A stretch of 64,000 nt of DNA from Oidiodendron maius Zn. Its lineage: Eukaryota > Ascomycota > Leotiomycetes > Myxotrichaceae. Numbering within the stretch: position 1 is the first letter of the stretch; the number at the start of each line of letters is the position of its first letter. The notes beneath the pieces were generated by a model. That model was given only the letters and a program-made list of their open reading frames with translations, had not been told where the DNA came from and ran no database searches. Positions 30,985 to 64,000 of the stretch are shown here, piece by piece. The stretch lies in NCBI GenBank assembly GCA_000827325.1, contig KN832881.1:22616-86615 (forward strand), read 5' to 3'. Both the position numbers and the translations under genes were made by a program.

Positions 30985-31810
30985 TTATGGTACTTTGATT
31001 ATATCCTCGGCCGCCACATCTACACCCTTACTCTCGACAGAGAAGCTCACGCGCCATTTTCGGTCGTCTCTAGGGATAATATGCACCTTCAATTCATCCT
31101 TGGGTGTTGGCATAGACGAGTCATAGGGGTGACCTTCCGCGGCTCCTCCCACTTGCCGTCCTTTTGCAAAGTGACGCCCGGGACAAAGTACTGTTCCCCC
31201 GCCGAAAGATCGAAATGCAACAGGATTCGTACGCTTTTTGCCAGGCTCCCGCAGAAACCGGGGGTGGTTGAGAATGTACCGACTGTCGGACCCCATACTG
31301 AGGCATCGGTGTGCTGAACTGGGGCGACTGTCATGACGGTGGCGCCCTTCTTTAGCAGGTATTTGTTGTTGAGCATGGTGTTCTTTATCACGACTCTGGC
31401 AGAAACCCTGACGTGCACATAGCACAGAGTTTCCTGCCATGTCGAGAGCAAAACAGGGCACGACGAGTTGACATTGGCCAGATCGGCATTGTGGAAACCA
31501 TCACTCTCGACATGCACGAGCTGCTCAACCTCTTCTAGACACTCTTCAAGGACCACGGGGTCAGAGAAGACGTGGTAAACCATCCGGAACGCGGCCGCTA
31601 TGCTGTTGGTCAGACTTGCAACCATCTGAACGATCTCGGTGGCTGCTACGTCTCTGCCCCGCAGACCATGGCCTGTATTGTGATTGTAGTGACACTGGAC
31701 GAGAGTCGAGCCCTGAAGATGGCCGTTTTTAGCGAAATATTTCTCGAAGGTGGGGATGAGGAGATGCTCCTGCGCGTGGAGGGCTTTGCGTGCCAGGACA
31801 CTTGGTCATG
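30985..31810 (-). pseudogene. Cytochrome P450, 3' fragment
   Basis: Minus-strand frames give the C-terminal half of a microsomal P450: GSTLVQCHYNHNTGHGLRG, VAATEIVQMVASLTNSIAAA, a helix K-type WQETLCYVHVRVSARV, TVAPVQHTDASVWG, and a perfect haem-binding loop FRSFGGGTVLCPGRHFA. One frameshift separates the helix K part (frame of 31089-31625) from the haem loop (frame of 30985-31461), and part of the C-terminus is missing. The first 250 or so residues are absent: coding homology ends near 31810, shortly before the dispersed repeat at 31939. The haem-loop form is seen in CYP7/CYP8-like fungal P450s (from memory). It is non-functional. Confidence 0.8.
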
Positions 31811-31938
31811 CCTTGAGTATGTGTACTATGATAGTTGGTTTAAACACACTGTTCAAGGTGGTATTAGTTGGGTTCAATAGTCAAGCAGTATATTGGAACA
31901 GGCAGGGGTATGACATACTACCATGCTTGCTCGAGAGT

Positions 31939-32585
31939 CAGAGGCTAATACTTCGAGACTAGCAAATTCCTCTCGTATTACAACTAGCACAGAAGAAGGG
32001 CCTAGCGGCGAAGCCTCACCTCTATAAGTGTCAGCCTTTCGAGTCCCTATTGACTCCGTAGACGAAACGGAGGAACTAAATTTAGCGACGCCTCCGCCAG
32101 CAGAGAATAATTTGAATGAGGCAGTGCAGTCCCAAGTATTCAGAGAAGCAGATACTTCTGTCGGCATAAGCGCTTCTTCTAGGGAGCTTAGCACCAGTCA
32201 CGCTGAAGAGGAGTCTAACAAGGTCTTAAGGAAGCAGAAACATATGGCATTTGTGGATTTTGGTTCGGAGGATCGGCCGAGAAAAAACGGCTCCACACAT
32301 GAGGACGTTATCGATATACGGGAACGAACGGATGAGGAGAGGGACACTAAAAGACCGAGAAGGGAGGCAATCTTAAAAAGGCCACTGCCGAGTGAGGACG
32401 CCGTCCATATAAGGAGCCAGGCGGAGAAGGAGTCAGAGCAGAAACGAGTGAGGAGAGAGGAGGTAAGCATGGAGGACGCTCAAAGAGGAACGCAGGCGAA
32501 GGTTGTTGAAGTAGAGCAGGAGAAAGTTGTAAAGCGACGAAGCAGGAGAGCAGGGATTAGGGAGAAGTGGGAACAGCGAAAGTAA
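31939..32585 (+). repeat. Dispersed repeat, copy 2, with an acidic/basic open frame
   Basis: Bases 31944-32156 match 14622-14846. Here the sequence continues into an open frame to TAA 32583-32585 coding highly charged, low-complexity protein (ESNKVLRKQKHMAFVDFG, RTDEERDTKRPRREAILKRP, RRSRRAGIREKWEQRK). Such Lys/Arg/Glu-rich tails occur at the ends of transposon-encoded proteins and nuclear proteins. I cannot assign it. The upstream part is broken by a TAA in this copy. Confidence 0.5.
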
Positions 32586-45646: not shown

Positions 45647-48175
45647 TTATGGCAAGGACAAAAATAGCTCCAACATCTTGGGGTAGTTTGCAGTACCCAG
45701 ACCGGTGACAGGGTCCCATCTTATGATAGTCAGTTAGAGCTGGGTTACTAGACGGTGTATTTTCGGAGACAAAGATTGGGATGTGACGTACCCAGGAACA
45801 GCTTGGAAGCCGTGGCTACCACATCCAAGGTTGGTTCCATTGACGATATCGTTCAACACTTCTGGGTGGGCATAGAGAACAGGGTTTACAAAACCAACTG
45901 GGCCCTTACCGCGGACGGTGCGCTCTTCGTTAATCTGCAAAGAAAATTGGTCAGCCGTGTCCAACGGTGCCGTTTATGGAATTACTTACGAGAGTCAAGA
46001 TAGAGCCAAAAGTAGGAGCAGCAAGACTGGCTCCAAACCACTGGCCAAGCTCTCCATTGACGAAAGCGGGCATAAAAGCTCCATTTGAGGCAACATCAGG
46101 ATAACCTCTTCCAATTCGGTTGTACAGGCCTTTTGTAGTATTTAAATCGACTTGGAACTCAGAATAGTATGGATAAGAAGGACTGTGGGTTGCGAAATAC
46201 TTTGCGACGGCCGATATCTGATAATCTGGCTGAGGAAAATAGTTCGAGAATCCTCCTGAGGAACTGAAGTTTGCAAATGATCCACCTAGATTCCATTGCA
46301 TAACGCTTTCCTTGTCGCGAACAGTCTGGTCGGCATAGAGCATAGTACCTCCAACCGATGTAACATATGGGCAGTTGGATGGATACTGAGGATTAAAGAT
46401 AGTGCCTTCCGGGCCTAGACAGCCGTTTGCGCCTCCGTCTCCTGGGTAGGAAGCGACACCAAGATCTCCAGAGGCGAAAAGTATTGACACTCCTTGGAGA
46501 CCAAGTTTCATGAATTCATTACACTGGCGGTGGGTATAATCGTAAGGAAGATCTTGCTCAGCTTCCCCATAGGAGGCGCTAATGACCTTTGTAGGCTTGT
46601 AGACTCCACACATAAGTTTCCCTGATTTAAAGTTAGTTCTCAGGTTTTCTCTTGTATGTTTCCTGCCTACCTTTATACCCGCCAGCTGCAGGGTCGGGGT
46701 AGATAGGGTCAATGGATGGATCGTCTCCAGTCTCGCCGTAGGCGCTGTAAGTGCAGTATGACTAAAAGTGGTCAGCGATGCTTCTCATGCCGAGAATTCA
46801 AGACTAACACCATCAAGCGCATCCAGGAACGTGTTAAATGTGTTCACTAGAGCAACTTCGGCTGGGGAGTATACTTGGTCGTCGGTTTGGTAAAGAGTGA
46901 CGGTCTGGGGGTAAATCAAGGCAGTTCTAGATTTCAGTTAGTGCATGGGAGGAATTGATCCGAATCATGACCGTACGCAATGTCTATATCAATATTTGCC
47001 TCTCCGCCAACAAGTACGGTATTATTCGCAGGAGCCGAGTATTCTGCTCCATCGATCAGGGCAGGAATAGGTAAATGATTAATAGGTATATGTGGTGCAA
47101 ATAACTTGAGGTAGGATTGGACATCCGATATTGCAAAGTAATCGCCTTGCTCAAAAAGACCGAGGGAATTAGCACTCGTTACCGGGGGCGAAACTTGCGG
47201 AAGTTGATATAGCGCCTTCCAACATGGCGGGGTAATATTTACTCCGCATCCTTGGACATCTTCCGGTAGACTACCACTTCCCGGAGGCATATGATGCCAG
47301 TTTGCTGGGGGAGGAAGCATATGGTGAGATTTCTTGATTGATGGCCGGGTTCGGCGCTCGACCTTGACATCTCGTTTGACGACTGGGGTAAGCTGCGGAA
47401 GATTGAAAGTTAGAATAATATTTTAATGAAAAGATTTCGGGAAGATCCAAGAAACAATTCAAAAGCAAAAATGGTCTGTTATAGTCCCGAGCAGGAAATA
47501 AGCATCATTGGCGACCTACCTTAACACCTGGAGTAATGTAGTCTATGTGTGGCTGGAGGTATTCTGGGACATGATATCTGTACATTAATTAGCTGATTTC
47601 GAATATCGACATCAAAATGTCATACTCATCACATCCCACTCTGATATTGGGACTATGACGGTGCTCGTGCTCGTAGTATTCGGCCAAGAGAAGCGTCTCA
47701 GCCTCCTCGACAGTAGCATCGAATGCTAACCAGCCCTTGTTGTCCGAGTGCACAATGCGTGATTCGTCAATACCAGACATTGTAAGCCAGTTTCTGACAG
47801 CTTGGACAGCTTCTGCAGTGGGCGCGAACATGTCCTGGATTTCTTCCTCAGTCCAGTACTGCCCGTACTTTGGAGAATCCGGATGCGACCTAGACAGCCG
47901 ATTAGCATAGCCTAGATGTCTTGGCTTCTCGCCTTCAATTGAGACGAGAGACAGGCCACCTACACTTCCATGAGAAAGTCACGGCCCTTCTCAAGATTGC
48001 TTTGGGTCAGCCCGATGCGTATTGGCAAGATTGCAGTACTCTCGATCCGAGCTACTTTGACCCAATCCGAAGACAGAGCCTGTCGTTTTTCGTGCAGTGC
48101 ATGTTTAATTGATGCAGGCGCGGCATTGCAGAGAGCTACAGCAACAGCAAAGATACCGAGCTTGAGGACAAACAT
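45647..48175 (-). CDS. Secreted sedolisin (S53) serine-carboxyl protease, aorsin-like
   Basis: Nine exons on the minus strand: 48175-47964, 47889-47626, 47577-47520, 47392-46977, 46926-46809, 46761-46671, 46621-45990, 45934-45792, 45719-45647. They total 2,007 bp and 668 residues. Signal peptide MFVLKLGIFAVAVALCNAAP. The pro-domain (SNLEKGRDFLMEVSHPDSPK, YGQYWTEEEIQDMFAPTAEA) is the kumamolisin-activation type. Catalytic region: GGEANIDIDIA holds the Glu and Asp (near 309 and 313), VISASYGEAE, LFASGDLGVAS holds the oxyanion Asp, and FGASLAAPTFGSILTL holds the nucleophile Ser (near 585) in a GAS context where most members have GTS. WDPVTGLGTANYPKM is the calcium site. It acts in acidic medium outside the cell, cutting as an endo- or tripeptidyl-peptidase. 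All splice junctions agree in phase. Confidence 0.92.
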
Positions 48176-49276
48176 CTTGAGAGTAATTTGCGTTTTCTGG
48201 TATATCTACCGTAAAGTTAGGTAGAGATCCCGCTGGAAAGGAAAGTGGGTGCAGAGCTATTTTCAACCGAGAGGTATTAAATTCAGCATGCATGCGACGC
48301 TCCTGTCATGGGGATAGAGCCAAACATCCATGGCCAATGGATAGTCGGAGGGACTACCTGATGGGTACCTCCGTATGCAAACCTAGTTCGTCCAATATCG
48401 ACCTGGGAAATACCCCGGACACGAGCAGGAGTCCATGCGGCAAGATAAGCTTTGTTGTTGGTGCAACACACGCCACTATGCGGGAAGCCGACTACCCCGC
48501 TACGAAAGATAGGGTCTCCTTCGCACTGTAATTGGGCCTCCTCTAGATTACCCGCTGTGCCTCATTCATGCCGCGCAGGCCAGCGTTCAGGGCGCGTTCA
48601 TCAATGATTCTCAACTGGCTACGGTTCGACTCCGGGGATACCGGCAACAGCCGCTACCCTAGCGGACGCAGCGCGACGGCCACGCTCGAGAACGCGATAA
48701 GGGTTTGGTTTCCTTGCAGTATTGTTCATCGGTTGCTTCCTAGAGGTGCTCAAGCTAGATGATGCTGCCAAGTTGTGGTGTATTGATCGAATACAAGCTA
48801 GAGAGAGGGAGGAAACTAGCAAATACAACATAACACGCGAAATAATAGGCAATATGGGCTATCGTTGCCCTGTCCTCCATTTCTAGCATACCCGCTCTCA
48901 CAACTGAAAACATAACAAATATAGATAGGTAGAGACTGATATGATAAATTTAGAATCGCGTATGAGCTTATTAGTTGGCTTCAAGTCGTGGTGGCAGTGG
49001 ATCATGGAGAGACCATGGTAGAGGTTCAGGTAATTATGAACCTTCCTCAAACCAGCACACAAATTACACAAAGATACAACTCACAAGATGCATTCACCTA
49101 ACGGCACAAAAGTTGTAGGAAGGGAAGAATTGACCTATGAATTCTTAGGGATATAAATATTAGTTGTATTCCCTATGGGAGTATTGCGCAAGACTCAAGG
49201 TCTTGGCGTACTAATGTCTGATTAATTACTCCCTCGTAACAGGAAGCTTAACAAGAAACGGGTTGTATCTAAGGTC
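48176..49276. other. Intergenic, 1.1 kb
   Basis: The upstream side of the protease gene. A gly/arg-rich minus frame at 48540-48850 has no recognisable family. A lone B-box-like ggttcgactcc at about 48630 has no A-box partner, so no tRNA is called. Confidence 0.4.
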
Positions 49277-50029
49277 TCAAGCTGCCCGTACCTCATCTTT
49301 TTCGCAGCCCATGAACGCCCAGTATGCAGTAGTGACCTTAAGCAATACTCCATCTGCCAAATAACCAGAGGCAAACTCGGACTCTTCTAACGCTGTAATA
49401 AATTCTGTAAAGAGTGTGTAGAAGCGAGGGGACCCAGACAGATGAGATGATGCACGCACGGTTGCATGCTTATTTAAAACAGACAGGGTTGGCTGATACT
49501 CTATTTAAGTTAGCTTATGCTATTTTGCTTCAAATATTAACTTACCAATTTCTCTTACCATCGCAGGGTACAATCCATACAATGCTTTGTATGTCGACAA
49601 ATCCGTCCTCCTGCCAAGCGACTGGTAGAGATCTGCGTCGCGAGACGCATTTCCCTCATGTGCCCATACATTTCCATCAGCAATGAGATGTAAATCGGCT
49701 GGTGTAGCGTTCTGGAGCTTGTCTCGTTTGAATGTCGAGAGAAATCTATTACGGAGAATTCCATAGTATCCAATCGACTCTTCTAAACTGATTATACGTG
49801 CCAGGCTGCCATTATATTTTCCCGTAATGTCGGTCAATTTTTCCGTAACGTCAGTCAACTTGTTCTCAACATTGATTAGCCGTGCTTCAAGTGAATCCGA
49901 TTCTTTCGCTCGTCTTGCATATGAGAGTCCCGCCATGTTTCCAACAAATGCCATATCGTGTACCATCTCTATCTCTATGTTATCATCGTCCGCTGTGCGC
50001 TTGAGCCTCCTTCGGGCATCAGCCGTCAT
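49277..50029 (-). CDS. Hypothetical coiled-coil protein, 235 residues
   Basis: Exon 50029-49546, intron 49501-49545 (45 bp, GTAAGT, branch GCTAAC, end ATAG), exon 49500-49277. Together 708 bp in phase. The N-terminus MTADARRRLKRTADDDN is basic and acidic. Residues about 45-85 form a heptad-like coiled coil (SLEARLINVENKLTDVTEKL). The C-terminal part (SGSPRFYTLFTEFITALEES, GYLADGVLLKVTTAYWAFMG) looks folded and helical. There is no signal peptide or transmembrane segment. In-frame codons upstream (CHIASGSDQD) also occur in the truncated copy at 43197, so the true start may be further 5'. The family is not recognised; the partial second copy shows that it duplicates. Confidence 0.68.
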
Positions 50030-50999
50030 ATCTTGATCGCTTCCAGATGCGATGTGGCAGGAAATGATTCCAAGGCAGTCCTCGTCTGTGGATAGGCTCG
50101 GAGAGCCTAATTTGGGTTCCTATAGACCAACTCATTAGGGCTGCTTGGATTGGCATATATATACTGATTATTTGTGGGTAGTGTATGACTCACGTGAAAG
50201 CCGGGGAGTGGACGACTTGGGGAGACTTGAAGTCATTTGTAAAAAATAAGGGCATCTATTACCAGTGGATTCTATAAGGACGCACTAACCTATTTTGGGA
50301 CGCTATCGATGGCTGCGAGGGGTGCGAGATTTCCCACTCCCAGGATTGTTGCTTCTTGGTGGCATTCTTCGCAGACGAGGAAAAGTACTTCTGGATGAGA
50401 GATAGGAAGATGAACAGAACGAGGAACAGACACTGGCTAGATGATAGACTTGGCCTTCCTTCTCCTACAGGCCGATGCCTCCAGGGGAGAGAGTCCATAT
50501 GGAGATGAGGAAGGGGCGAGGGATTGCCCCTCGCCCCGAAGCTTTCGAACGTATCATTAATCTTAGAGCCCTACGCATGAAGCACGGGCACCCGGGGCAA
50601 AACAGGGAAACAGGTAAGAACGAACTATAACGAGTGACACTTGATGCGAGGTGAATGGAATACTGAAGACGTAGCCCTGGGACAGGTACGCGAAAGTATG
50701 TTGTTACAAGACTCTTTGAGGGGACTGGGGTGCGAAGAGGAGAGGGGAATGTAGTGGTTTTCTCTGATGTATTTTGCTCTGATGTATTTTTCTCTGATGT
50801 ATTACTGAGCCGAAACTGAAAAGTAATAAGGTCGCCATTGCCAGTCAACCAAGAGCCAGAGGGGGCCGGGGTGCGAAGAGGAATGAAGGGATATTTGAGC
50901 CATATTCATTCTCACTGCGTTCTAGCAGAGCGTTAGAGGTGATCATATACGCGAACCAGTTATGGAACGTGTCGCATCAAGTTGGATTGGGGTTCCTAT
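50030..50999. other. Intergenic, with a short triplicated motif
   Basis: ctctgatgtattt occurs three times in a row at 50762-50804. The rest has only short frames. Confidence 0.45.
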
Positions 51000-52330
51000 G
51001 TCGTATCCGCGTGGCCCAGCCATTTCACTTTATACCAAACTTCTCGTTGCTCTCGCCGGGTTGTATGTTCCTCGTGATCGATAATCTGGTTCAAGATGTT
51101 GCATAGATATGACCGGATGGGTATCACGCATCCAATCTGGGAGATCGAGTTTGCAGCTAAGAGGGTTGACTTCTAGGATTGGGAAGGGTCCCATCTTATT
51201 GCTCAAGAGCCTCGTCTGGTTCTGCAAGTGATATCCTCGAGATCCTGGCTTCGCTAATTGGAGATAGGCCCATCCTGCGTCAATTTGGGGTCTGCGATGC
51301 TGCTCATCATAGCTGAGCTTTATCTTAGCTTGGGCTAGCTTGACAGCGTCCATGGCTTCGGGGCGAACGCGCTTACGGCGCTCGAGATATTCTGACGATT
51401 CGCTGTAGCGTCTAGAAAAATAGGTTTAGGGTCATGTCTATACAATAGAGCGTACGGGGCAGCTTGGGTGCCCGCTTGATTAAGGTGTTCATCGCATGTT
51501 GAACGTAAGGCAGGTAGTCTTCCCATCCTTCTCGACTATCCTTCTCCCCGATGATACAGCGCAGGGCGTGATCTGCCGTCTGATCAGTACGTTCCACTTG
51601 GCTATTAGCAGATGGGTGATGAGCTGTCGTAAATGCTAAACGGGTTTTGGCTCGTTCAAAGAGCTGTGTTTAGAATCCGGATAGGAATTTAGGATCCCTG
51701 TCTGATATCACGACGTCCAGATGGCTCCAATCTCCTCAAACATGGTGAAATACGCATTAGACCAGTCTTCCGCTGTCCAGGTGCCCATCCCAGGAAGTAT
51801 CTGAACGTATTTGGTGGGTTTACAAGTGACCGTAAGGCACGCATTATAACCCGACCCGTAATGAAGTCAAAGGATAGCGTAGATAAGGGAGCTTCTAAAT
51901 GCGGAATCAGGTGTAGATCGCCCAATAGTCGAAGCCGACTCAGTTTTGCGGCCTCGCAGCAGGGACATGCGACAATATACTCCGTAAGCGCTTTCTTTAG
52001 TTTCCGACTGAAGATCTAGGATCGTAAGGTATCGTATGTACGATGAATGCCATGATATGCGCGGTTGTCGTGGGCGATTTCGAAGATCTTCTGGCGCAAT
52101 AGAAAAGGGAATACAAGACCGGTCGTTACCTATAATAGGGTCATATTAGTACAGCAGTCGGGATCGTCGATCAAGGCGGAACTATTCAAAAGCGGTAGTC
52201 GGGCCACCATGACCATGGATCGTTTCACGAATGCGATGCCGCATCTTACGATACACTTTGCCAAAGTATCAATTCGATTGGAGAAGCTTAAAGATCGCGT
52301 CTGTGATATCCTTATGAAGATGTAGGGAGA
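51000..52330 (-). mobile_element. Ty3/gypsy retrotransposon remnant (integrase part of pol)
   Basis: Read on the minus strand, degraded pol sequence runs from about 52330 to about 51000: the end of the RNase H/linker region, an integrase zinc-binding HHCC part (HDNRAYHGIHRTYDTLR with CPCCEAAKL), the integrase core and the C-terminal chromo-like stretch (LLSNKMGPFPILEVNPL, LDLPDWMRDTHPVI). No LTRs were found and the 5' part is missing. The element is broken in many places. It is a fossil fragment of an old insertion. Confidence 0.8.
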
Positions 52331-52444
52331 CAACCGTGAGTGGCGAAGCGAAATGATTCCAAAGCATATTCAGTAGACCGTGGACGCCTACTCAACAGCA
52401 CTGTCTGTCGCTTTGCTAGCTTAGCCCTAGACTAATCACACCAC

Positions 52445-53215
52445 TCAATTCCGAACGTCTCGTCCCAATGGCAGTAGGTATAGCATCGTCATCGGATTCG
52501 AGACGCTATTCACCTGGTACTGTATCTTGAGAGCAGTAGTGCTGCGAATGGAGGCAATTCTGTCACTTAGCATATAGGACGAAATCTCACGAATCTGTAC
52601 ATGCGTACATTGATGCGTACGGCAGAGAATGTATGCACGATTGTTGCCTCTAGCAGTAAGTACCGTCTGATGAACCATGAGCTGCTGTCGACCGAGCAGC
52701 TTCATTCCTCCCGCCATGAAGTCAGTGGCGGCTCTCGGTGCGATCGGCACCGCCTCCACCAACCACCATCCCGCGACATACAACCGTCTCTGATCCAGCC
52801 AGGGCACCGGTCGCCATATCATTCCAGGTCGCGCACCGACGCTAACCCGGAGCCGTAAATAATACTCTGGCTGTTCGAGTGCTTGGCGGGCACGTGCGGT
52901 TGCTTGCTTCCTAGTGCTCACCGCCCACGCGCCAACGAGGTTCATGGTACCCATGTTTGGGAGGCCCAAGCTCCGTGGAGCTGGGATCCTTAATTGGACT
53001 CGAACGACCTGCCTCGGTCCTGAAAGGGTCGAGGAGGATGGTACTGGACAGAGTAAGAGAAGTATAATCTTTTCAGGACAACGCTCATGTCCCGGCGGAT
53101 ACGTCCTGTGCAGTACATACGATCCAGCGTGCGTCATCTTACTTGTAATTGTCCTGGATTTTTCGTCTGTAAGCCCTACTTCCAGGCATTGCCAACGGAT
53201 GAGTAGTGGAGCCAA
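52445..53215 (-). other. Long open frame of doubtful coding status
   Basis: A 256-codon frame is open on the minus strand (MAPLLIRWQCLEVGLTDEKS to LPLGRDVRN). It is rich in Arg, Leu and Trp with no recognised domain, signal peptide or membrane helices, and parts overlap a plus-strand frame of similar quality. Length alone supports it. It may be a spurious frame in repeat-derived DNA next to the gypsy relic. Confidence 0.22.
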
Positions 53216-53851
53216 TTTCCGAAACCATCTCAGAGAGCCGCGGCTTCAGGTCTGCCTCTCTGAAGTGTTTCGAGAAGTCTGGGTGGAAGGAACAGCCAGA
53301 CGCAATATATTAAATGCGGAAGATTCTATAACTCGAACAGCCGGGGAGGAATGCAACTACATCTCACCCTGAAACTGCCTTTTCTAACTACTCCTCCTCT
53401 CTTTGCGCGTTTGGCCAGAGATTAGAGAAGTAAAACGGTACACAGCCTCCTAATAGTACACGGGTAAAGCGTTGGTTTCCCGCTGGATACGTCACATCCC
53501 GATCACATCTCAACAACTTTGTCGCAAGCGGTATCAATAACCCAATCAAAACCGACAGCTAAAGCCCTTACGGGCGCCTCACCCATAGCATCCTCTCTGA
53601 GGTAGTTGTACCCTCCAAGGGTCTTGCCGGGATCCAAGCGTCTAGCGGTGATCATACACAGGCCTTCCTACCCACTGACTACCCTCCATAGCTTCTATCT
53701 GCACAGCCCCTTTGTGACATGATAGCTTATTACTCTTTTGCCTTCACTCACAGCATATGGAGGTATATATTGTCGGCACCGGCCTCCTCTCCCTCTGCCC
53801 ATCCCAGAAGCTCATCTTCATACCTGAACTCTAGGAACCCAGAAATCCAAA
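53216..53851. other. Intergenic, promoter side of the cupredoxin gene
   Basis: A TATA-like ggtatatattg at about 53761 lies some 90 bp before the start codon, followed by a C/T-rich leader typical of well-expressed fungal genes. No gene was seen. Confidence 0.45.
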
Positions 53852-54697
53852 ATGATTCTCTCCCCTACCGTCCTGCTGCTTTCTCTCCCTCTGGCTCTGG
53901 CCCAGTATGGGGGGGGCTCGCCGGCTGCTTCGCCAACAACAAGCTCAACCTCCGCACCAGCATCCACTACAGCCCCGTCTGTTAGTATCCAGACCGTCAC
54001 AGTAGGCGAAAACAACCAACTTGTCTTTAATCCTGACACCATCACTGCTGCCGTGGGCAGTGAGGTGGAGTTTATCTTCTTCCCGCCATCCCACTCGGTG
54101 GTGCAGGCTGCTTTTGACGCGCCATGTCAACCAATTGGCAACAATGGATTCTACAGTGGCGCCTTTACCACTTCTTCTGGATCCAACGTGAGCTCTCTCT
54201 GTCCTCATGCGCACCAACGTTGCGTGACTGATGAATGTCCACGCAATAGGCGAATAGCTTCACCATCACCATAAACGACACGAATCCGATTTGGATCTTT
54301 TGTGGCTTCCCTGGGCATTGTGAGGCTGGCTTGGTTGGAGTTATCAATCCGAATGCGTATGTGACGGCCAATCATCCCCATCCCTACCTACACTTTTTTT
54401 CTCCATCCGCTCGTCAAGTCGGCGTGACTAATTTTCTGCTACAGCTCCAATAGCTCCCAGACTCTCAGCCTGTTTAAGGCAGCTGCGGCCAAGGTCAGCA
54501 GCACTACTGACCCTACATTCGCACCCCAAGGTGGCGTTATTGGTCCGGTACAGGCAGCTGTTAGCGCCTCTCCCTCTTCCTCTGTCAGTGCGACACCGAA
54601 GCCGGGAAGTGCAAGTGAGATTAAGGGTTCAACGCTGTGGGCTGGTCTCTTGGCTACAGTGGTGACTGCATGGGGGATTGCAGAGCTGATGGCATAA
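53852..54697 (+). CDS. Extracellular cupredoxin-domain Ser-rich protein, GPI-anchored
   Basis: Exons 53852-54187, 54250-54356 and 54445-54697; introns of 62 and 88 bp; 696 bp and 231 residues. Signal peptide MILSPTVLLLSLPLALAQYG. A Ser/Thr/Ala-rich linker leads to one cupredoxin fold (VSIQTVTVGENNQLVFNPDT, FFPPSHSVVQAAFDAPCQPI, then, across the intron, PIWIFCGFPGHCEAGLVGVI). The His, Cys and His positions of a blue-copper-like site are present (SHSV; CGFPGHC), but copper binding is only inferred. The tail is a Ser/Pro stretch followed by STLWAGLLATVVTAWGIAEL, a GPI-addition signal. This family of wall- or membrane-attached fungal proteins has no firmly known reaction. The gene is intact. Confidence 0.9.
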
Positions 54698-55167
54698 AAG
54701 TTTTACGAGTAGTTAGTGTTGGACTGAGTGTGGACTTCCGCAGGCACCTTATGAGCCTTCCTAGTGACTGCCGCAATTAATAAGGTTATATGGAGTTGGA
54801 ATTAATATACTACCCATATATAGTCATTTATTGAACGAACTTTACTTATCGCTCCATTATCTTATATGACGTTAAAAACTCTGTAAGATTAAAATCTCGA
54901 GTTTGTTGAATGGCTGTGATATTAATCAGCACATCGTTTCCACAGTATGCTACCGGGGATGTTTATGGTTCACGTTATTTCTGCCCATGAGAGGAACGAA
55001 GGATTATTTTTGTATTTGGAAGAGCATTCAGAGTGGATTTAATGCTTATGTAACAATTAAAGAAACACCAGTGCACTAAGCTCTCGTGTGACACTAACTC
55101 TGAGATAGAAATTGCAAGGCTTGCTAAGCTGCTAGCTGTTTGAGCGGTTACAACGCTTGAAGACAAC
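54698..55167. other. Intergenic between convergent genes
   Basis: A+T-rich 3' ends of the cupredoxin and MFS genes. Nothing else was seen. Confidence 0.5.
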
Positions 55168-56937
55168 TTAAAGAATGTATCTGAAATCAGGATGAAAATC
55201 ATACAGTTCTTCCTGCTTTGTCTCGTCAAACTCCGTGGTGCCATGATCTTGCTGGGTCAGGGCCCCTCGAGCATCTCTCTTATGATTCTCTCTTCTCATC
55301 CAGAGGTAGTTGCAAGTTATCGAACAAAGAGCCAGAACGAAAAAGCCCAACAAGGTTCCATGTCCGGCTAGATATCTCGGCGGATGCCGGTAGATTTGAG
55401 TTCCCATTATGCTCAGCCCTTGCCCCGTAATTTGAGCCATGGCAAATGCTGTGCTACGTTTGGTGTACCCGCCATGGTTGATAGTTATCCACGAGACAGT
55501 GAGAATTATACTTGGATACAGTCCAGACGCAACAAAGCAAGTGCCAGCAATGAGAGCAACCTTATTAGTAGTCGTGATGAGAATTATAAATCCGACAGCC
55601 GAGGTGGACATGGCAAGAAACAAGACGGGCCCTTTACTGTTGAGGCGGTCAGAGAGGAAGCAAACCGAGAGAAGGGTGACGGTGGCAAAGGCATAGGGAA
55701 TCATTGTGAAAAGTTGTGTATGTACTGCTAGAAATTAGCCTGTGAGCAACATTAAAACAAAAGAATATCTCACATGGATCGAATCCGAACTGAAGAATAA
55801 ACGTTGGGAGAAAGGAAGTGATTGAAGCGATTCCAAGGCAGAGAGCGCCGTATATTACAGCAGTGAAATATGACTTCGGGTCTCTGAATGCTACCAAGAT
55901 CTCGGACCAATTGATCTTCTCATGATATAGGCTTCGCTCTGTAAAAGAGTCAGCAATGTTTGGGATTCCGTCCGTAACAGAGCTGGTCTCTTGCCTTCTG
56001 TCATCCGATGTAGAGCCAAATCAATCTCAGTGCTGGTAAAGTATCTGCTACCCTTTTTGGCAATAATATCAGGAAAGGAGGGTAATAGGAACAGAACAAT
56101 AATTCCTAAACCAATAGCGGGAATCCCTTCAATAATGTACAACCACTGCCAAGCATGGAATCCTCGGACACCTTCAAGATTCTTCTCTACACCATAGGCA
56201 ATAAGCCCACTAAAGCATCCTGAGATAGTTGATGAGGTATAGTAAAATGCTGTGGTACGATGTTAGAATTTAGTAGGCGTACGAAAATTTTGTGTCCTAC
56301 CAGCTCTTGTGGCCACTTCGTCCCTCTTGTACCAGAAGCTGAAGTAGAGCAGACCAACTTGCACAAATGCCTCTCCAAGGCCGATCAGTAGGCGGAGACC
56401 CAGAACCGAGCTGTAGTTATGTACGGTAGAAAGACAGGTGCCGCAAACGCCGAAGAAGATGACTGCGAAGCCTAGTTGTTGAGGGGGTCCAATGATCCTC
56501 ATGCCAATATTTGCTGGGAGGATGAAGACCATATATCCGACAACTGGGCTATATCAGCACTGTGCCGAGAATAGATGAATCTGGAATTATTTATCAATAA
56601 GTATGACATACAGAACATCATTAAACAGTTGAAGAACTGCCCGTCGGTCAGGTGGAGGTCAGCCTGCATGCCCATTACACGAGCGTTGCCCAAGTTGTTT
56701 CGGTCCTTGTGGTTGCAGCATCAGCATCAATGTGAGATGTTCATAAGACGAGGGCAATACCAAATAAGCAATAAAGAATGTAAGGGTCAAGAGTGGTACG
56801 ATGGCAAAATCCATCTTGCGTAGCAGTCGCTTTTCCTCCTTTGACTTTGTCCTCTTTCGCTCTGTTGCGGCCGTGATGTTATGTTCTTCAACCCATAACT
56901 CGCCAGTCTTCCCTGCCGTGTCTAATCCTTCTGCCAT
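55168..56937 (-). CDS. MFS anion:cation symporter (Dal5/Tna1-like), one apparent frameshift
   Basis: Minus-strand exons: 56937-56761, 56705-56612, 56543-56301, 56249-55774, 55727-55168, about 516 residues. The N-terminus is acidic/basic (RKRTKSKEEKRLLRKMD), then transmembrane helices and the family motif DRNNLGNARVMGMQADLHLT, GVCGTCLSTVHNYSSVLGLR, GEAFVQVGLLYFSFWYKRDE, SGCFSGLIAYGVEKNLEGVR, GFHAWQWLYIIEGIPAIGLG, then the C-terminal six helices. This matches plasma-membrane carriers of allantoate, nicotinate or organic acids. Every splice junction fits, except that between RMTEG (near 56000) and ETSSVTDGIPNIADSFTERS the frame shifts by one base with no usable intron. It is either a sequencing error or a recent loss of function. 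It is divergent from the regulator gene at 57611. Confidence 0.82.
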
Positions 56938-57610
56938 TGTGTTGAAAAGGTCAAAGGGCTAAAATAAAGCCGAAAGACTAGATGGGAGTATTGTAGAGTT
57001 GTGGAGTTGTGGGGTTAAATAGGGAGAATCTGGGGTTGCGGGGAGACTCCATGACGGTTTTATACACTTCCCAGAAGCTCAATTTCGCGTCTCATCTTGA
57101 TCGATTTGAGTGAGCCATGGCTCTGTCCGGTACTGGTGGTCACTAGACGAATCAGAGCATCGCAATCACTCCGATATTTGGATTCGCATCGCACCGATGT
57201 CATCGGAGTCAGCTCCGATCCTGAGCGTCGTGGCAAATGGTACCGGGCGGGCGGAGCTGCCCCAGAAGAAGGACCGCATAGACATAATGTCGGCCAGCTG
57301 TCTCATATAATGTGAAGGCTAGGAGAAGAATTGCGTATTCCGGTTCCAAACCCGGAAAGAAGGATGGGAATTCGAGAAACGGTTGAGAGCTGTCACGTGA
57401 GCAATCAATAACGATACCCCTTGCGGGAGTGCCTTACTCATCTCTGTCCTCTATCTCGACGACCGGATTCTTGAATCTCAGCTCAGCAGCTTCTTGCAAT
57501 CTCAACGAGCTCGATGTGCGGGCCAACAATGCTGAGGATTCAGAGTAGATGGCACCAGGCCGCAGTGGAGTTGAAACTCATTGGGAGCACACAGGCACGC
57601 TTGATGCACA
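56938..57610. promoter_or_regulatory. Shared divergent promoter, MFS carrier and Zn2Cys6 regulator
   Basis: The 673-bp spacer separates two start codons facing away from each other. CGG/CCG triplets, the half-sites for Zn2Cys6 proteins, occur several times (for example atccggattc near 57466 and gtccggtac near 57127). Which are bound cannot be told. A bidirectional, co-regulated arrangement is inferred from layout. Confidence 0.45.
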
Positions 57611-60055
57611 ATGGAAGTCAATGCCAGTGGCCAGAATGCAATGGTCTCGAGACCACGGCAGCAGAAGCAACATGGCATCAGGAGGGCTTGCAATGAGTGT
57701 CGCCAGCAGAAACTTCGATGTGATGTCGTAAGCGATCCTTTTCAGGCCTGCTGGAGGTGTCGGCGGCTTCGCCTTGTGTGCAAGATAGAAGCTGGTTTTA
57801 AACGGGTGGAGAAAAGAAGGTACTCTATGTCTCCTGATCGAAGACATCGATCGTTACTAATAGTCTTGTTAGGGCAAAACATGCTCGCCAGCTACAGGAA
57901 GCAAGGCAGCTGGAACAGGCTCAGCTCGGAGACGTAGGGTCCGTTGCGCCTCCGTCAGCGATCGTAACTCAATCTGTGAGCATGGCCGAGGAGGGGGCGG
58001 AGCATTCTACGTCTGTGCTTGATCTTCCAACTGTGCCTACCCTTCGCAGAGTCTCGCCAGCAACGTCAAAATCGGTACTAGATCAACTTTCCACTTATCC
58101 AACACAGCAAGACCGCGCGGAGCAAGAAATATCCGCGCCCAACCAGCGACTTGGCTCCACTGGAGCCAGTATTGATTCAGCTACGCTCTCAGTGGTTGAC
58201 TCTTCTCGATCATTAGATGGGGTGGAACTAAATGCTCTTGATGTGGATGCCCTATTTGAGATGTAAGCCTTCTGTCCCTTCAATCTGCCAAGGTCTCATT
58301 TGTCCCACCTTCAGATTCTTTAAATATTATCACCCTTTCTTGCCTTTTCTCGACTCATCACAGGGAGGTGACTCGTACTACCGCTCATCGCGCCTTCTAT
58401 TCTGGGCCATAATTTCCGTGGCTTCTCGCCGGTACTCTGCAGACTTGACTCTGCTCCCAGCTCTTGTTGTCAGCGTGCCTAAGCTGTTGTGGTCGACCTT
58501 ACAGCGCGTAACCCATAACTACCATGACGTGAAAGCGTTGTGTTTGCTGTGTGTCTGGCCATTCCCAAGGAGTAGCTCATCCAGCGACCCAACATTCAGT
58601 AAGTGTTGATTCTCCTTTACCTCACCCCTGAACGTAGCAGGACGCGGAGAAGAAAGTTATTTAAGGGGGATGTTCTCACATTGTCTATTTGAAATGTTGT
58701 ATAAGCTGATATACTATAGTGCTGAGCGGAACTTTAATGTCCCTAGCAATGCAGATCGGTCTCCATAGACCGTATCAAGCTCAAGACTTCTCTCAATTCG
58801 CTATGCGGCTCCCACCAGATGAAATCCGAGATCGCATCACGACCTGGCTCACTTGTAAGATCGTTGCACAATGGTACGTTTACCAACAATGCTATATTAC
58901 ATTGCCTGGCTCATCTTGATTGCTAATCTAATTGACAGGGTTGCCACTGGGTACGGCCAATCATTGGCAGTAATTTGGGATGAGAGCTCTGTATCGATGG
59001 CCGAGTCCAGTGCACCTTTTAAAGATATAGAGAACCAGATGAAAATAGAGAAGCTTTGCGCCACGATATCAGGCACTTTATCCATCGCGGATGAAGTCCC
59101 GAATGTTGAAAATGACTATCCTCATTCACTGCCAATTGACCGGTTAATACAAGACCTCTCTTGCCTTGAGCTAGAATTTGCAGATCAGGACTGCCAACGT
59201 AAGCCTTTGTTCCCTTTATCTATTTCACTAACCAAGTGTAGATGCGTTATTTCTCTATCTCCACTGTGCTCGACTTCACCTGCGTTTACAAATCTTACAC
59301 CAACTCCCTACATCTCCGAACTACATTGAATCTGTCTTGTCTCTATATGACGCATGCAACGCTCTAGTCATGTTTGTGCACAATTCCGACATGGATGTAC
59401 TGAATTACTGTCCGAACTATGTTTTCCAGATGATCCTTGCAGCCGGATTTTCAGTTTTGAGGCTATCTACAAGTCCCCTTGTTGAGTACATTGATGCCCT
59501 GACAGCCAAAAGGCTCTTCAATTCTTCAATAGCTGCTCTTCGGAAGATTAGCATCACTAATAATGATCTCCCTGGTCGACTGGCTGAGGTTCTAGCCCAG
59601 CTGAAAGCGCGCCGAAATCGATTATCTAGGGAGCTAAGAGCTAACTGGAATAGCCTGCAGCTAAAGGTCCGTAGCAGACTGAGTATGAGTATCACTTTTG
59701 ATTCGCTTTGGGAATGGCGCAGGGGCTTTGTAGAAGATGAGAATGGGACTGTCGCAAGTATGTATCAGTTTATACCTGCAGCTATTTGACCAATATCGCA
59801 GCTTGGAAAGTTTTATTACTGGACTAATCACACATCTTGCTAGATAAGGATGCTCCCAGTGGTACCGCAGGGCAGTTCTTTGGATTGTCACAAACATCAC
59901 CCTCAATACAAGACGGCGAGATAATTTCCTCGCTGGCGACGAACCAGAACTTCGACCTCAACAGTATGGCCCTTGATCATTTTTATCCGTGGATGCTGGA
60001 AAACGCAACAGAGATACCCACTTTTTCAAGTAACCTAAATGAATTCACGACATGA
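57611..60055 (+). CDS. Zn2Cys6 fungal transcription factor, 674 residues
   Basis: Seven exons: 57611-57819, 57873-58262, 58315-58598, 58720-58873, 58939-59198, 59242-59757, 59844-60055; 2,025 bp. The zinc cluster uses Cys 27, 30, 37, 47, 50 and 57 (CX2CX6CX9CX2CX6C: ACNECRQQKLRCD, ACWRCRRLRLVC), followed by a basic linker. A Ser/Thr/Gln-rich region leads to the fungal-specific middle homology domain (FFKYYHPFLPFLD, RSSRLLFWAIISVASRRYSA, MLSGTLMSLAMQIGLHRPYQ). The C-terminus is acidic with aromatic residues (DHFYPWMLENATEIPTF), a likely activation region. All six introns are in phase. It probably controls its divergent carrier and convergent lyase, by position. The gene is intact. Confidence 0.92.
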
Positions 60056-60151
60056 AAGTTTGAATTGATGTTCAACATATGTCTAGACACACGCGAAAAG
60101 CTACGTTTTGTTACATGACACATGTGAGTCAATGAGAGGCCAGCTTCCAAC

Positions 60152-61214
60152 TCACACTCCGCCAACAAAAGCAGTTCCTCCAGCCCTAGCGTCTATCTCC
60201 AAATCATCACTTAATCCGCTCACCTCAAACAGCTGTTTTGGTGTCATATAGGCCTCCGCTCCTGTTATACCCTCCTTCATAAGCCTTGTGTACACTTCCT
60301 TCATCGCCTTATATGCTGGTGCTATCCCCGCAAACGGGAAAAGAATGATTCGGAAACCCATCTCGTCGGCTTCGCTCACGCTTATCGACGGAGTCGCGCC
60401 ATGTTCAACCATGTTCAATAACACCGGCCAAGGAGCTAGGTCCTTCACCGTCTGCCGGGCTTGCTCTTTGCTTGTAATACCCTCAAGAAATCCTACATCA
60501 GCACCTGCTTCACGCGCGAGTTTTAGACGGCGGATGGATTCATTGTAACCCAAGGATTGAAGCGCGTCGGTACGGGCAATGATCACTATGTCAGAGTCTA
60601 TTGCCTTGCGGGCAGCTGTCGCTGCCCGGATGCGAACGAGAAAGTCCTCAGCCGAAACGAGTAGCTTTCCATTCAAGTGGCCACAGCGTTTTGTTTGGAC
60701 TTGGTCTTCGATATGCAGAGCTGCAACACCACTGCGTGTGTATTGCTCGATGGTACGGGTGATCATTATTGGCCCTATGGACACAACGTTACACTTAGTG
60801 TCTTGTCTCTTCTTGATCAAGGGGGCGGTAAGCTCCGTTCATGTAACACGTATTCATACCTCCATATCCCGTATCAGCGTCTGCAATGAGTGGCACGCTT
60901 GAATTCAGATTCGCAATCATCTCCGCATGCTCACGCATATCATGCAAGTTGGCGATACCTAAGTCTGCATGCCCAATTTTCGACGCACTCGTACCAGCAC
61001 CTGTCTAGAGTTCGTGCTTGTCAGGTCCAGGCTCATTTTATCTTAAGGGTCTTTTTCGCACCATATATATCGCGTCAAATCCAACCTCCAGCGCAATTCG
61101 AGCAGAGAAGCCATCATATACACCTGGTGCAAGAATAATAGGTCCTGGCGATGCAATACAGTTTCGAAGCTTTGTGGCGGCGTTGATACGTCTGGGGGGA
61201 GAAATGGAGCCCAT
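60152..61214 (-). CDS. Isocitrate lyase/PEP mutase family enzyme
   Basis: Exons 61214-61062, 61004-60860 and 60774-60152 (minus), with introns of 57 and 85 bp; 921 bp and 306 residues, normal for the family. It forms a TIM barrel: GPIILAPGVYDGFSARIALE, AIYMTGAGTSASKIGHADLG, DADTGYGG (about 92-99, Mg/substrate loop), HIEDQVQTKRCGHLNGK (KRCGH near 128-132, the isocitrate-lyase-type active loop with Cys 130), IIARTDALQSLGY, GADVGFLEGITSKEQA, LLNMVEHGATPSIS. Members cleave or rearrange C-C or C-P bonds (methylisocitrate, oxaloacetate, phosphoenolpyruvate-type substrates); the substrate here is unknown. It lacks the insert of classical glyoxylate isocitrate lyase. It is convergent with the regulator, with 96 bp between stops. 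The gene is intact. Confidence 0.92.
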
Positions 61215-62108
61215 ACTTTTAAAAAGGGAGGGGTATACGTGTATTTAGAAGCAATCAAATTTGATGAGTTATAGTTCAGGGAAGAAAGATTTGTGCAGCA
61301 TTCGGGGTATATATACTCTACTCAAGGCATGTTGGATTGGTGCAGGTTATGAAAGCCGTTGCGATACCGCAACAGATGACATATGAAAATAATCTATTGC
61401 CAGCGGCTCATATTCCCGGGATAAAACCCTGAATTCCGATTTCCGCCATACCTGCTGTAGTGGTGGGTGTATCGGAGCCGGGACAATGTTGAGATCGGGC
61501 CGGTCATGAGAACCGGAGAGGAAAGGGATGCAGCTGCGTAGAGAACTAACACAAATCTGAATAATACTTTTGGCATAGAAACATGAATACCCCGTGAAGC
61601 ATGACTGAAGGCTGATTTTATGTCTTCAGATTAATTTTCATGTAGTTGTCTTATCAAGCAGCAAAAGGGTTCAATATATCAGATCAAGCTGGTGAAGTGG
61701 CGAAGCACCTGGTGAAGCACGTGAAGTAAGTATGTTGCTTACATAATCCCAACATGCAAAGGCAAGATTTGTTGTTGTATTGCTTTGGTTCATTCCTGTA
61801 AAACGAGTACACACAACGTTTTGGGCAACTAGGAGTGGTGTGTGCCTTTGTTCGTCGTTGTATAGACGCTATGGCAGGGATAAATAGCCTGGCATTTCTT
61901 TTGAGTTGACACTGAGGAGGGAATGACAGATGGTACAACTTGAAATGCCTTTCATTGCTTATACGATAATTGCAATATCTGCCCTCCAGTGATCCGTTGG
62001 CATATAATATGCGCACAGATGCAAATACAACGCCGGTATGCAATTTCCCACCACCCAATCCATATATGCCATGTATGCAGAAGTCCAGTACGAGGTAGGG
62101 TGGATGAT
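61215..62108. other. Intergenic, 0.9 kb
   Basis: The upstream region of the lyase gene and the 3' side of TFIIF beta. Short frames only; nothing recognised. Confidence 0.45.
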
Positions 62109-63355
62109 CTATGAAGGAACGACGTCCTCAAATTTAATATCCTCTTCTTCTTCGTCGTCATCCATACCTGTATCCGATTCTTCCTCATTAATCGGAGCAG
62201 CTGCGTCTACACCTCCTTCATAGTTGGCAAGTTTATTTTCGGGTTTCAACGACCATTGCGTCGCAAATCGCCCGCTTTTTGCTAGTACCGCAACTTTCTC
62301 CAGTGTCTCTCGGAGATATACCTCGGGTTGCTGGAGTTCAGCACGTAAAGCCTTCATGGACCAGTAGTTATATCTTCTGAAGCACTCAAATATCCGGTCC
62401 AGAAGCTCATTTTGAGGCATACGAGCAGCCTTGCTAAGTTGCGGTCTGCTGGCAGCTGTAGTCCCTTTGGTTTTCTGCGCAGGTTGATTAGTACGCGAGA
62501 GAGGTAGAAGGATATGGCAACTTACAATGAACCCTCCGAAGGCATTCATTCCAGCAACTGTGCCAGGTTGAATAAAGCCTGCACGATTACCGGACAGGTC
62601 ATCCTCAACGAATTTGGTGAAGAACTTAGGCTTCATCGCCTCCATCGTCATCATCGCGAGGAGTCGACGAGCCTCTTCATTCTCCACCGGGACACTGTTC
62701 ACCTCATGTGCTACCCTTCCTGCAAGTGTGGTCCGTTCTGTTGGGCAAGTATTAGCGATGCTCAGCCACTTCAAGAATCAAACTCACTCGGTATAGCTTT
62801 TCTAAAGTATGGAGTAAACCGCTTGTTAGGATCCCAAGGCTGCTTCGTCTTCTCGTTGCTTGGTCGAGTAAGCCTGGCGGGCATGTTCGCATTGCTTGGG
62901 TCAAACTTCTGTCTGGACTTAGACTTGAAGCCTGGCAGATCCTGCTCTGTGAAAACAAATGTGTTGTTCACCGACTCGGAAGTAACATCCAGCAAATACT
63001 CTTTGGGAATTGTTTGGTGTACCCCTAGATCAGAGGACAGTAGCATTGAAAGCGACGTCTGCTATTGTCAGTGATGAAGGCTTATGGAAATTCTGGTGAG
63101 AAATACCTGAGGCTGGCCATCGGCACCAATTTCCTGGCTCTGTCTTATGGTTCCGATACGAATCTCTGCATCATCATCGAGCGATGACCATGCTTCCCAG
63201 ACGTATCGCGGAACGCGAGCAAGGTAGAGCTTCTGAAAAGTTGGGTCAGGGTTGAATTCGAGGTCCCCCGCGTCTTCATAGATGTCGTCGTCGGTGAAGA
63301 CCCCAGGTGAGGCGCCCGGAGCATCGGGGTCAGGCTTAATTAAACTGTCCGCCAT
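62109..63355 (-). CDS. TFG2: Transcription initiation factor IIF subunit beta
   Basis: Exons on the minus strand: 63355-63107, 63061-62788, 62737-62526 and 62474-62109 (introns 45, 50 and 51 bp); 1,101 bp and 366 residues. The family pattern is clear: an N-terminal acidic lead, the dimerisation part (LYLARVPRYVWEAWSSLDDD, EIRIGTIR; DLPGFKSKSRQKFDPSNANM), AIPKRTTLAGRVAHEVNSVP, and a C-terminal winged helix that contacts promoter DNA (RMPQNELLDRIFECFRRYNY, WSMKALRAELQQPEVYL), ending in an acidic tail. It joins RNA polymerase II to the promoter complex in the nucleus. At exon 2 the acceptor is a tandem TAGCAG, so proteins with or without one Gln are possible. Single-copy housekeeping gene, intact. 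Confidence 0.94.
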
Positions 63356-63715
63356 GATCCAGAGAACTTGTATTATGAGTGATGGTCCATGAAGAAGAAG
63401 GGAAATGTAGAGGCTGGCCCAGGGTGCAGTAGATCGGCACTTTTCTTTGTGCTTAAGGTGGGTTATTGTCGATGATGATGGGCGTCGCCGTCATGGGGCA
63501 ACAGTGCGGCTCTGACAGGGCGACGGAGAAGCGCGCGCTAGAAAGGATAATCTATTACCCGACTGCCGATGAACATCGTCACTTCTGTTTCTTGTGTACC
63601 TACTATCGATACGCTGGTGCTACAACGTCTTCTAACCCTCTGACTCTACAACCATTCTCGCAACGCTTTGTTAACGTTAAAACTAAAACGTTGCCGACGC
63701 ACGACTATACTAACC
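63356..63715. promoter_or_regulatory. Shared divergent promoter, TFIIF beta and the 63716 gene
   Basis: A 360-bp spacer between two opposite start codons. Pyrimidine-rich tracts and no strong TATA fit housekeeping promoters. A 100-codon plus frame inside it (63466-63768) is read as a shadow. Confidence 0.5.
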
Positions 63716-64000
63716 ATGTCCACGGAGGATCAGGAAATCCTCGCCAAGATCAGTCAACTCGCAGGTGAGTTTGTCGCCACCCACTCTGTTTGCGATAAAC
63801 CAACACTGACTCTGGCATTTGTTTGTTCTTTGACACAGGGCAAATAAATCGACACAAGAATGGACAGTCTTCAGGCCAACACACACAGCCAGCTCCAACA
63901 TCCAGCGCAAGGTCTTGCGCAGGTATGGAGCTCTCTGCTCTCCACAGCAGGCACTCTGCTAACACTTCTGGAGACACCCCTCAGTCATCCGCAGAATGGA
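63716..64000 (+). CDS. 5' part of a gene running off the window
   Basis: Exon 1 63716-63764 (MSTEDQEILAKISQLA) is followed by a 74-bp intron (63765-63838, GTGAGT to CACAG) and a second exon starting GQINRHKNGQSSGQHTQPAP. The start context is good (aaccATG). The N-terminus resembles that of fungal CCCH zinc-finger RNA-binding proteins as I remember them, but no zinc finger is inside the window. A further intron after about 63910 is possible, as two reading frames stay open to the edge. Truncated by the window. Confidence 0.6.

Follow-up and report, generated by a model that had tools for sequence, protein, structure and literature searches.

Which acid might a fungus handle with three adjacent genes for a carrier, a regulator and a carbon–carbon lyase? 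The question is raised by a locus of Oidiodendron maius Zn (assembly GCA_000827325.1) in a window of 64,000 nucleotides, the whole stretch of DNA analysed here (contig KN832881.1, positions 22,616 to 86,615, forward strand; all positions below without a contig handle are counted from its first letter). An original prediction, made from the letters of the window, had described the trio as a small regulon whose regulator senses the imported acid and whose substrate is unknown. We built the gene models by hand splicing of open reading frames and compared the products with Pfam and NCBIfam profiles and with solved structures. All three reading frames are complete after splicing, and the predicted coordinates, with their gaps of 673 and 96 bp, proved exact to the base. 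Our best explanation is that the trio works on its own to break down a malate bearing an alkyl group, or a close C5–C7 relative, under a Leu3-type sensor, and we assign this reading a probability of roughly 0.55.

The lyase and its solved relatives

The lyase falls into the ICL/PEPM superfamily, with PEP_mutase as its best Pfam family (6.1e-42) and a further match to ICL (2e-19). Among solved structures, 2,3-dimethylmalate lyase (DML; 3fa3/3fa4, with 3fa3 presumably the Aspergillus niger enzyme of Narayanan 2009) ranks first at 1.2e-128, ahead of oxaloacetate acetylhydrolase (OAH; 3lye) at 8.3e-113; the third relative, a bacterial methylisocitrate lyase, follows at 2.1e-46. DML converts (2R,3S)-2,3-dimethylmalate to pyruvate and propionate. 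The aligned window enzyme is 65.3% identical to DML over 297 residues and 59.3% identical to OAH. It retains the KRCGH loop, D86, D88, E115, R160, E190 and N213, acidic, Arg and Asn positions that we take to matter for metal and substrate binding and catalysis, and so does OAH. Position 239 in DML numbering, which we take to be that of the OAH marker serine, is Pro in the window enzyme as in DML, and Ser in OAH. G60, A87 and M214 likewise agree with DML and are replaced by other residues in OAH. A conserved active-site serine is tied to OAH activity in PMC8224569. Judged from its sequence, the lyase most likely cleaves an organic acid in the manner of DML.

These results narrow the prediction. 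A carbon–carbon lyase acting on organic acids agrees with DML as the best solved relative, and the substrate is not unknown in the strong sense, because most of the compared specificity positions match those of that enzyme. The NCBIfam equivalog models for known enzymes of the superfamily score far under their cut-offs. The best of them, prpB, reaches 238.5 of 354.4 bits, and phosphonopyruvate hydrolase and PEP mutase reach 95 of 374.4 and 82.4 of 319.55 bits, which gives no support to the phosphonates that had been listed among possible substrates. We rejected three ideas about the lyase: an oxalate-forming OAH (marker serine absent), a PrpB or an enzyme of phosphonate metabolism (model scores far under cut-off), and a recent transfer from the prokaryotes searched, where 34 relatives share at most 42% identity in their best segment.

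Carrier, regulator and a proposed route

The carrier matches the Pfam family MFS_1 above the cut-off (1.1e-25), and its MFS matches run across a GC-AG join (residues 50–420 with Pfam, 52–419 with NCBIfam). Its best NCBIfam model is TIGR00893, the D-galactonate transporter (6.9e-39; 133.9 of 395 bits), and HpaX scores 7.7e-27 with 94.5 of 615.4 bits, both below cut-off. We take TIGR00893 to belong to the anion:cation symporter (ACS) family. These below-cut-off family models are in keeping with the organic-anion type foreseen for the carrier; a search of solved structures with the carrier gave no match at 0.01.

The regulator carries a Zn_clus domain (2.2e-4; 21.7 bits, cut-off 21) and a Fungal_trans match slightly under its cut-off (9.6e-5; 22.0 of 23 bits). 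When solved structures are searched with the whole protein, the LEU3 DNA-binding domain comes out on top (8e-4); a query with its 71-residue domain returns LEU3 at 5e-5, with the runner-up at 0.031. Another gene of this genome, C12:720k, is 40% identical to the regulator, and its domain, queried at equal length, finds LEU3 at 1e-7, with GAL4 as runner-up at 0.004. The LEU3 scores are 35.1 bits for C12:720k versus 27.1 bits for the trio regulator, in a comparison of these two domains. A tree of eight regulator domains, in which one of the five inner branches is fully supported, pairs the two genes with modest support (83/91). Because of its stronger LEU3 match, C12:720k is more likely to be LeuB, and the trio regulator its putative paralogue.

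Alpha-isopropylmalate and dimethylmalate are both alkylmalates. Alpha-isopropylmalate activates Leu3 (PMC6221358). By analogy with Leu3, the trio regulator probably reads an alkylmalate. The idea that the regulator senses the acid thus gains from its Leu3 kinship and from the recurring paralogue pairs described below, and we retain it as probable.

The three proteins could work together as follows. The carrier would import an alkylmalate together with protons or another cation, and the regulator, its alkylmalate sensor now reading the imported acid, would switch on both carrier and lyase. The lyase would split the acid as DML does, into a 2-oxo acid and a short acid; with (2R,3S)-2,3-dimethylmalate as substrate, these would be pyruvate and propionate. 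The products would then feed central metabolism and the methylcitrate cycle. In this scheme the gene structures, the families, the intact active-site positions, the largely DML-like specificity residues and the recurring paralogue pairs can be read from the sequence, and the transport direction, the inducer, the exact substrate and joint control of carrier and lyase are inferred. That 2,3-dimethylmalate itself is the natural substrate is possible, though we rather doubt it.

Paralogous loci and the surroundings of the trio

Linkage was assessed from the positions of paralogues of the trio genes within the same genome, cited by handles such as C10. The regulator search found eight loci outside the window, and we retrieved the neighbourhoods of seven, all but C3:1714011. 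The lyase search returned one DML-type gene outside the window, at C10, and all remaining matches are at most 39% identical; a weak lyase relative is seen at C16. The C10 lyase (302 residues) is 53.4% identical to the window lyase, has Pro at the marker column and shares the same two intron positions, with GC-AG at the second where the window gene has GT-AG. A regulator paralogue (C10:544757-546119) is separated from the C10 lyase match by 2.8 kb. A divergent gene of LeuC plus LeuD type, seen as unspliced pieces (PF00330, PF00694), adjoins the lyase. Its small-subunit part fits the LeuD/DmdB family best (96.1 of 108.95 bits, below cut-off), and its large-subunit pieces match isopropylmalate dehydratase and homoaconitase models, also below cut-off. 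To judge from these matches, the enzyme may fit hydration of dimethylmaleate, one step before the lyase chemistry, and could equally be a relative of homoaconitase or isopropylmalate isomerase. Beyond the regulator, on the side away from the lyase, lies a PrpD gene; among solved structures, its product is closest to IRG1/cis-aconitate decarboxylases. This locus, at and next to C10:544500-554400, with PrpD, Leu3-like regulator, DML-type lyase and hydratase side by side, may deserve more attention than the trio.

Of the 93 matches listed by the carrier search, 88 fall outside the window; these merge into 70 other gene loci. The top paralogue by summed score, at C18, matches in three segments at 45, 43 and 41% identity; other long matches mostly lie at 23–33%, and a stretch of 71 residues at C15 reaches 51%. 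A regulator paralogue is found some 2 kb from this C18 carrier, and the cluster to which both belong (C18:803000-821900) includes PrpD, cyclase-family and class II aldolase genes as well. At C17:193050-211600, a regulator paralogue, three PrpD genes, a carrier (28%) and a PrpF fragment share about 18 kb. The small regulon-like unit of the original prediction is supported, and both regulator–carrier and regulator–lyase pairs recur elsewhere in the genome.

PrpD genes number at least nine at seven sites genome-wide, and three of the eight regulator paralogues have one within 12 kb, with a binomial chance of 2.7e-6. A carrier gene lies within 8 kb of three of the eight (chance 7e-4) and within 5 kb of two (0.006), and one of those three carriers, that of C2, matches at 29% and contains two stops. 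The gene counts behind these estimates are lower bounds. Other regulator paralogues have neighbours of a different kind: a hydantoinase/oxoprolinase A gene at C2:2612000-2621900, an AtuA/DUF4387 gene at C6:1449000-1458900 and an old-yellow-enzyme-type gene at the C8 locus. The C6 and C2 paralogues are more distant ones, and their neighbours suggest that regulators of the wider family could serve other acids. A separate stretch, C36:28599-66638, is a possible further methylcitrate-type cluster: its 40 kb contain adjacent PrpD and PrpF genes (47043-49088), an aconitase-family gene (31100-32364) and two carrier-family matches (28599, 65490).

Around the trio itself (Table 1), no further organic-acid genes were recognised in the open-reading-frame lists, in which genes with short exons could be missed; the lists covered frames of at least 100 residues at 50000-64000, at least 190 at 1-50000 and at least 120 over the 6.3 kb past the right end. 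The right neighbour is TFIIF beta (Pfam; frames 62112-62777 and 63071-63490), and frames past the right end of the window look zinc-finger- and bZIP-like by eye. To the left, a small secreted protein at about 53.85–54.7 kb was recognised by eye and has no Pfam match. Just beyond it, 49520-52500 holds retroelement-like frames that appear broken by eye, with one sub-threshold Tf2-1 SH3 match. Farther away, an open frame of 1445 residues (26376-30713) resembles, by eye, an NTPase with WD-type repeats (NLR-like).

Table 1. Features of the trio locus in window coordinates.
Feature	Position	Strand	Basis
MFS carrier of putative anion:cation symporter type, 497 aa, 6 exons	55168..56937	-	MFS_1, TIGR00893, HpaX matches
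Carrier exons	56937-56761, 56705-56612, 56543-56301, 56249-55995, 55938-55774, 55727-55168	-	hand splicing
Divergent carrier/regulator promoter, 673 bp between start codons	56938..57610	.	gene models
Perfect 18-base palindrome ATCGGAG-TCAG-CTCCGAT, candidate regulator site	57202..57219	.	motif search
Zn2Cys6 regulator, Leu3-like, 674 aa, 7 exons	57611..60055	+	Zn_clus, LEU3 match, tree
Regulator exons	57611-57819, 57873-58262, 58315-58598, 58720-58873, 58939-59198, 59242-59757, 59844-60055	+	hand splicing
ICL/PEPM-superfamily C-C lyase, 2,3-dimethylmalate lyase type, 306 aa, 3 exons; convergent with regulator, 96 bp between stops	60152..61214	-	3fa3 and 3lye matches
Lyase exons	61214-61062, 61004-60860, 60774-60152	-	hand splicing
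Lyase upstream region, single ATCGGAG half site at 61471	61215..61700	-	motif search

Weighing the readings against known systems

Several results weigh against a catabolic unit under a Leu3-type sensor, some of them from the promoters. The DNA site of LeuB is CCG-N4-CGG (PMC6221358; PMC12941744). Neither the 673-bp promoter nor the 894 bases preceding the lyase gene contain such a site, and the site is not enriched over 13 paralogue stretches (9 in 116,807 bases). The window as a whole holds 8 versus 6.65 expected, a count reached by 37 of 100 shuffles. At the paralogous loci, sites lie upstream of a C17 PrpD gene (200616, 200642), the C17 carrier (205461) and the C10 PrpD gene (542560), with start codons placed by eye from the open-reading-frame lists. 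Five further sites lie at C12:714674, at C6:1454251 and, three of them, at C2; the C18 stretches have none, and neither does the interval that separates the C10 lyase from the hydratase. Because there is no overall enrichment, the sites upstream of the C17 and C10 genes are a positional hint alone. The heptamer ATCGGAG, selected after inspection from 37 shared 7-mers, occurs three times in the divergent promoter, twice within the palindrome and once at 57169, which none of 1000 shuffles reached; its single copy upstream of the lyase was equalled in 41 of 1000. It is not frequent at the paralogous loci (8 in 116,807 bases, compared with 11 in the window). Genome-wide, the 12-base palindrome core TCGGAG-N4-CTCCGA has 4 sites versus 6 for a reversed control and is therefore not over-represented, so the palindrome is not established as a regulon mark. 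As a site for the trio regulator, ATCGGAG is suggestive at most.

The remaining adverse points concern the genes and their linkage. The carrier frame depends on reading the intron 55994-55939 as GC-AG. The lyase has G and A at DML positions 242 and 244, unlike DML (OAH has T and A there), and is just 6 points nearer to DML than to OAH; the C10 lyase is as near to DML (55.6%) as to OAH (56.2%). The distance limits used for the chance estimates were set after the data had been seen. Four of the eight regulator loci (C8, C6, C3 and C12:720k) have no nearby PrpD or carrier gene in the genome searches, and at no paralogous locus do all three trio genes occur together, as C10 lacks a carrier and C18 a DML-type lyase.

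Four other explanations must be set beside this one. If the lyase were an OAH, the locus would make and export oxalate; its identity with 3lye, the catalytic loop in common and the A. niger tables of PMC6320622, where an 'OahA class family' has three members, all speak for this, but the Pro in place of the marker serine and the DML-like G60, A87 and M214 make it improbable. Equally improbable is a methylisocitrate lyase or phosphonate enzyme, with the trio handling propionate-derived methylisocitrate or phosphonopyruvate. That explanation takes its appeal from prpB as the top NCBIfam model and PEP_mutase as the top Pfam family, yet prpB and the models for phosphonopyruvate hydrolase and PEP mutase score well short of their cut-offs, solved bacterial methylisocitrate lyases begin at 2.1e-46 compared with 1.2e-128 for DML, and the 34 prokaryotic relatives stay distant.

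The same chemistry could also be put to the opposite use, with the carrier exporting and the lyase removing or trimming a self-made alkylmalate or alkylcitrate in a biosynthetic or detoxifying role within secondary metabolism. In A. niger, two genes of the PrpD family described as CadA-like lie in what PMC6320622 calls a 'secondary metabolite gene cluster', and PrpD genes stand beside regulator paralogues in this genome as well. No synthase or tailoring gene was recognised beside the trio in lists of the longer open reading frames, where short-exon genes could be missed, and the best NCBIfam models of the carrier, though below cut-off, describe uptake proteins; we consider such a role unlikely. 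Neighbours by chance, with no functional unity, would be in keeping with the commonness of carrier-family genes, with the convergent rather than co-directional order of regulator and lyase and with promoters free of LeuB-type sites. The paralogous loci in the same genome make chance a poor explanation, since the lyase and the carrier both have their nearest paralogue next to a paralogue of the trio regulator. On balance we favour the uptake and breakdown of an alkylmalate.

A wider scenario can be put forward tentatively. Duplicates of LeuB may have become sensors of alkylmalates or alkylcitrates beside their own uptake and breakdown genes at four loci, the trio on C12 being the smallest and C10, C17 and C18 the others, where the genes in question are the DML-type lyase, the LeuC/LeuD-type hydratase, PrpD, the class II aldolase and the ACS carrier. 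A sensor of a biosynthetic intermediate would in this way have turned into a catabolic switch for look-alike acids, and fungi would possess an aerobic counterpart of the dimethylmaleate–dimethylmalate end of bacterial nicotinate fermentation.

We are not aware of any natural role assigned to fungal DML, and none turned up in the open-access papers searched. Nor did the papers listed in that search, which takes in few subscription papers so that absence is weak evidence, yield a description of a fungal DML gene group or of a LeuB-like regulator beside such genes. Each family is known; the combination of carrier, DML-type lyase and Leu3-like regulator may put these families to a use that has yet to be described. 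A locus tying fungal DML to a carrier and a Leu3-type regulator offers a testable role, a testable class of inducer and a route to the substrate. If the reading is right, it illustrates the re-use of a metabolite-sensing regulator for chemically similar acids, which would be useful for fungal biosensors of branched dicarboxylic acids.

Compared with DML (3fa3/3fa4), the window enzyme has 65% identity, the compared catalytic positions and the Pro in common; it differs at pocket positions 242 and 244, and its DML activity is a prediction. With OAH (3lye; 59%) it shares the superfamily and the catalytic loop, and departs from it in lacking the marker serine and in its DML-like G60, A87 and M214. 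With Leu3/LeuB, the trio regulator shares a LEU3-like Zn2Cys6 domain, but it sits between a carrier and a lyase, and the promoters of the trio lack CCG-N4-CGG. Bacterial nicotinate fermentation pairs dimethylmaleate hydratase (DmdAB) with dimethylmalate lyase. The trio has no hydratase, and the C10 locus places a DML-type lyase beside one of LeuC/LeuD type. The reaction of dimethylmaleate hydratase is given in PMC8651744. The citramalate and itaconate groups of A. niger (PMC6862759; PMC6320622) use other enzymes, either CimA or a CoA transferase, a hydratase and a citramalyl-CoA lyase. The tables of these papers also number a transcription-factor gene, An07g00750, next to ictA (An07g00760), and what the A. 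niger groups have in common with the trio is a small gene group that joins a transporter to enzymes of branched dicarboxylic acids.

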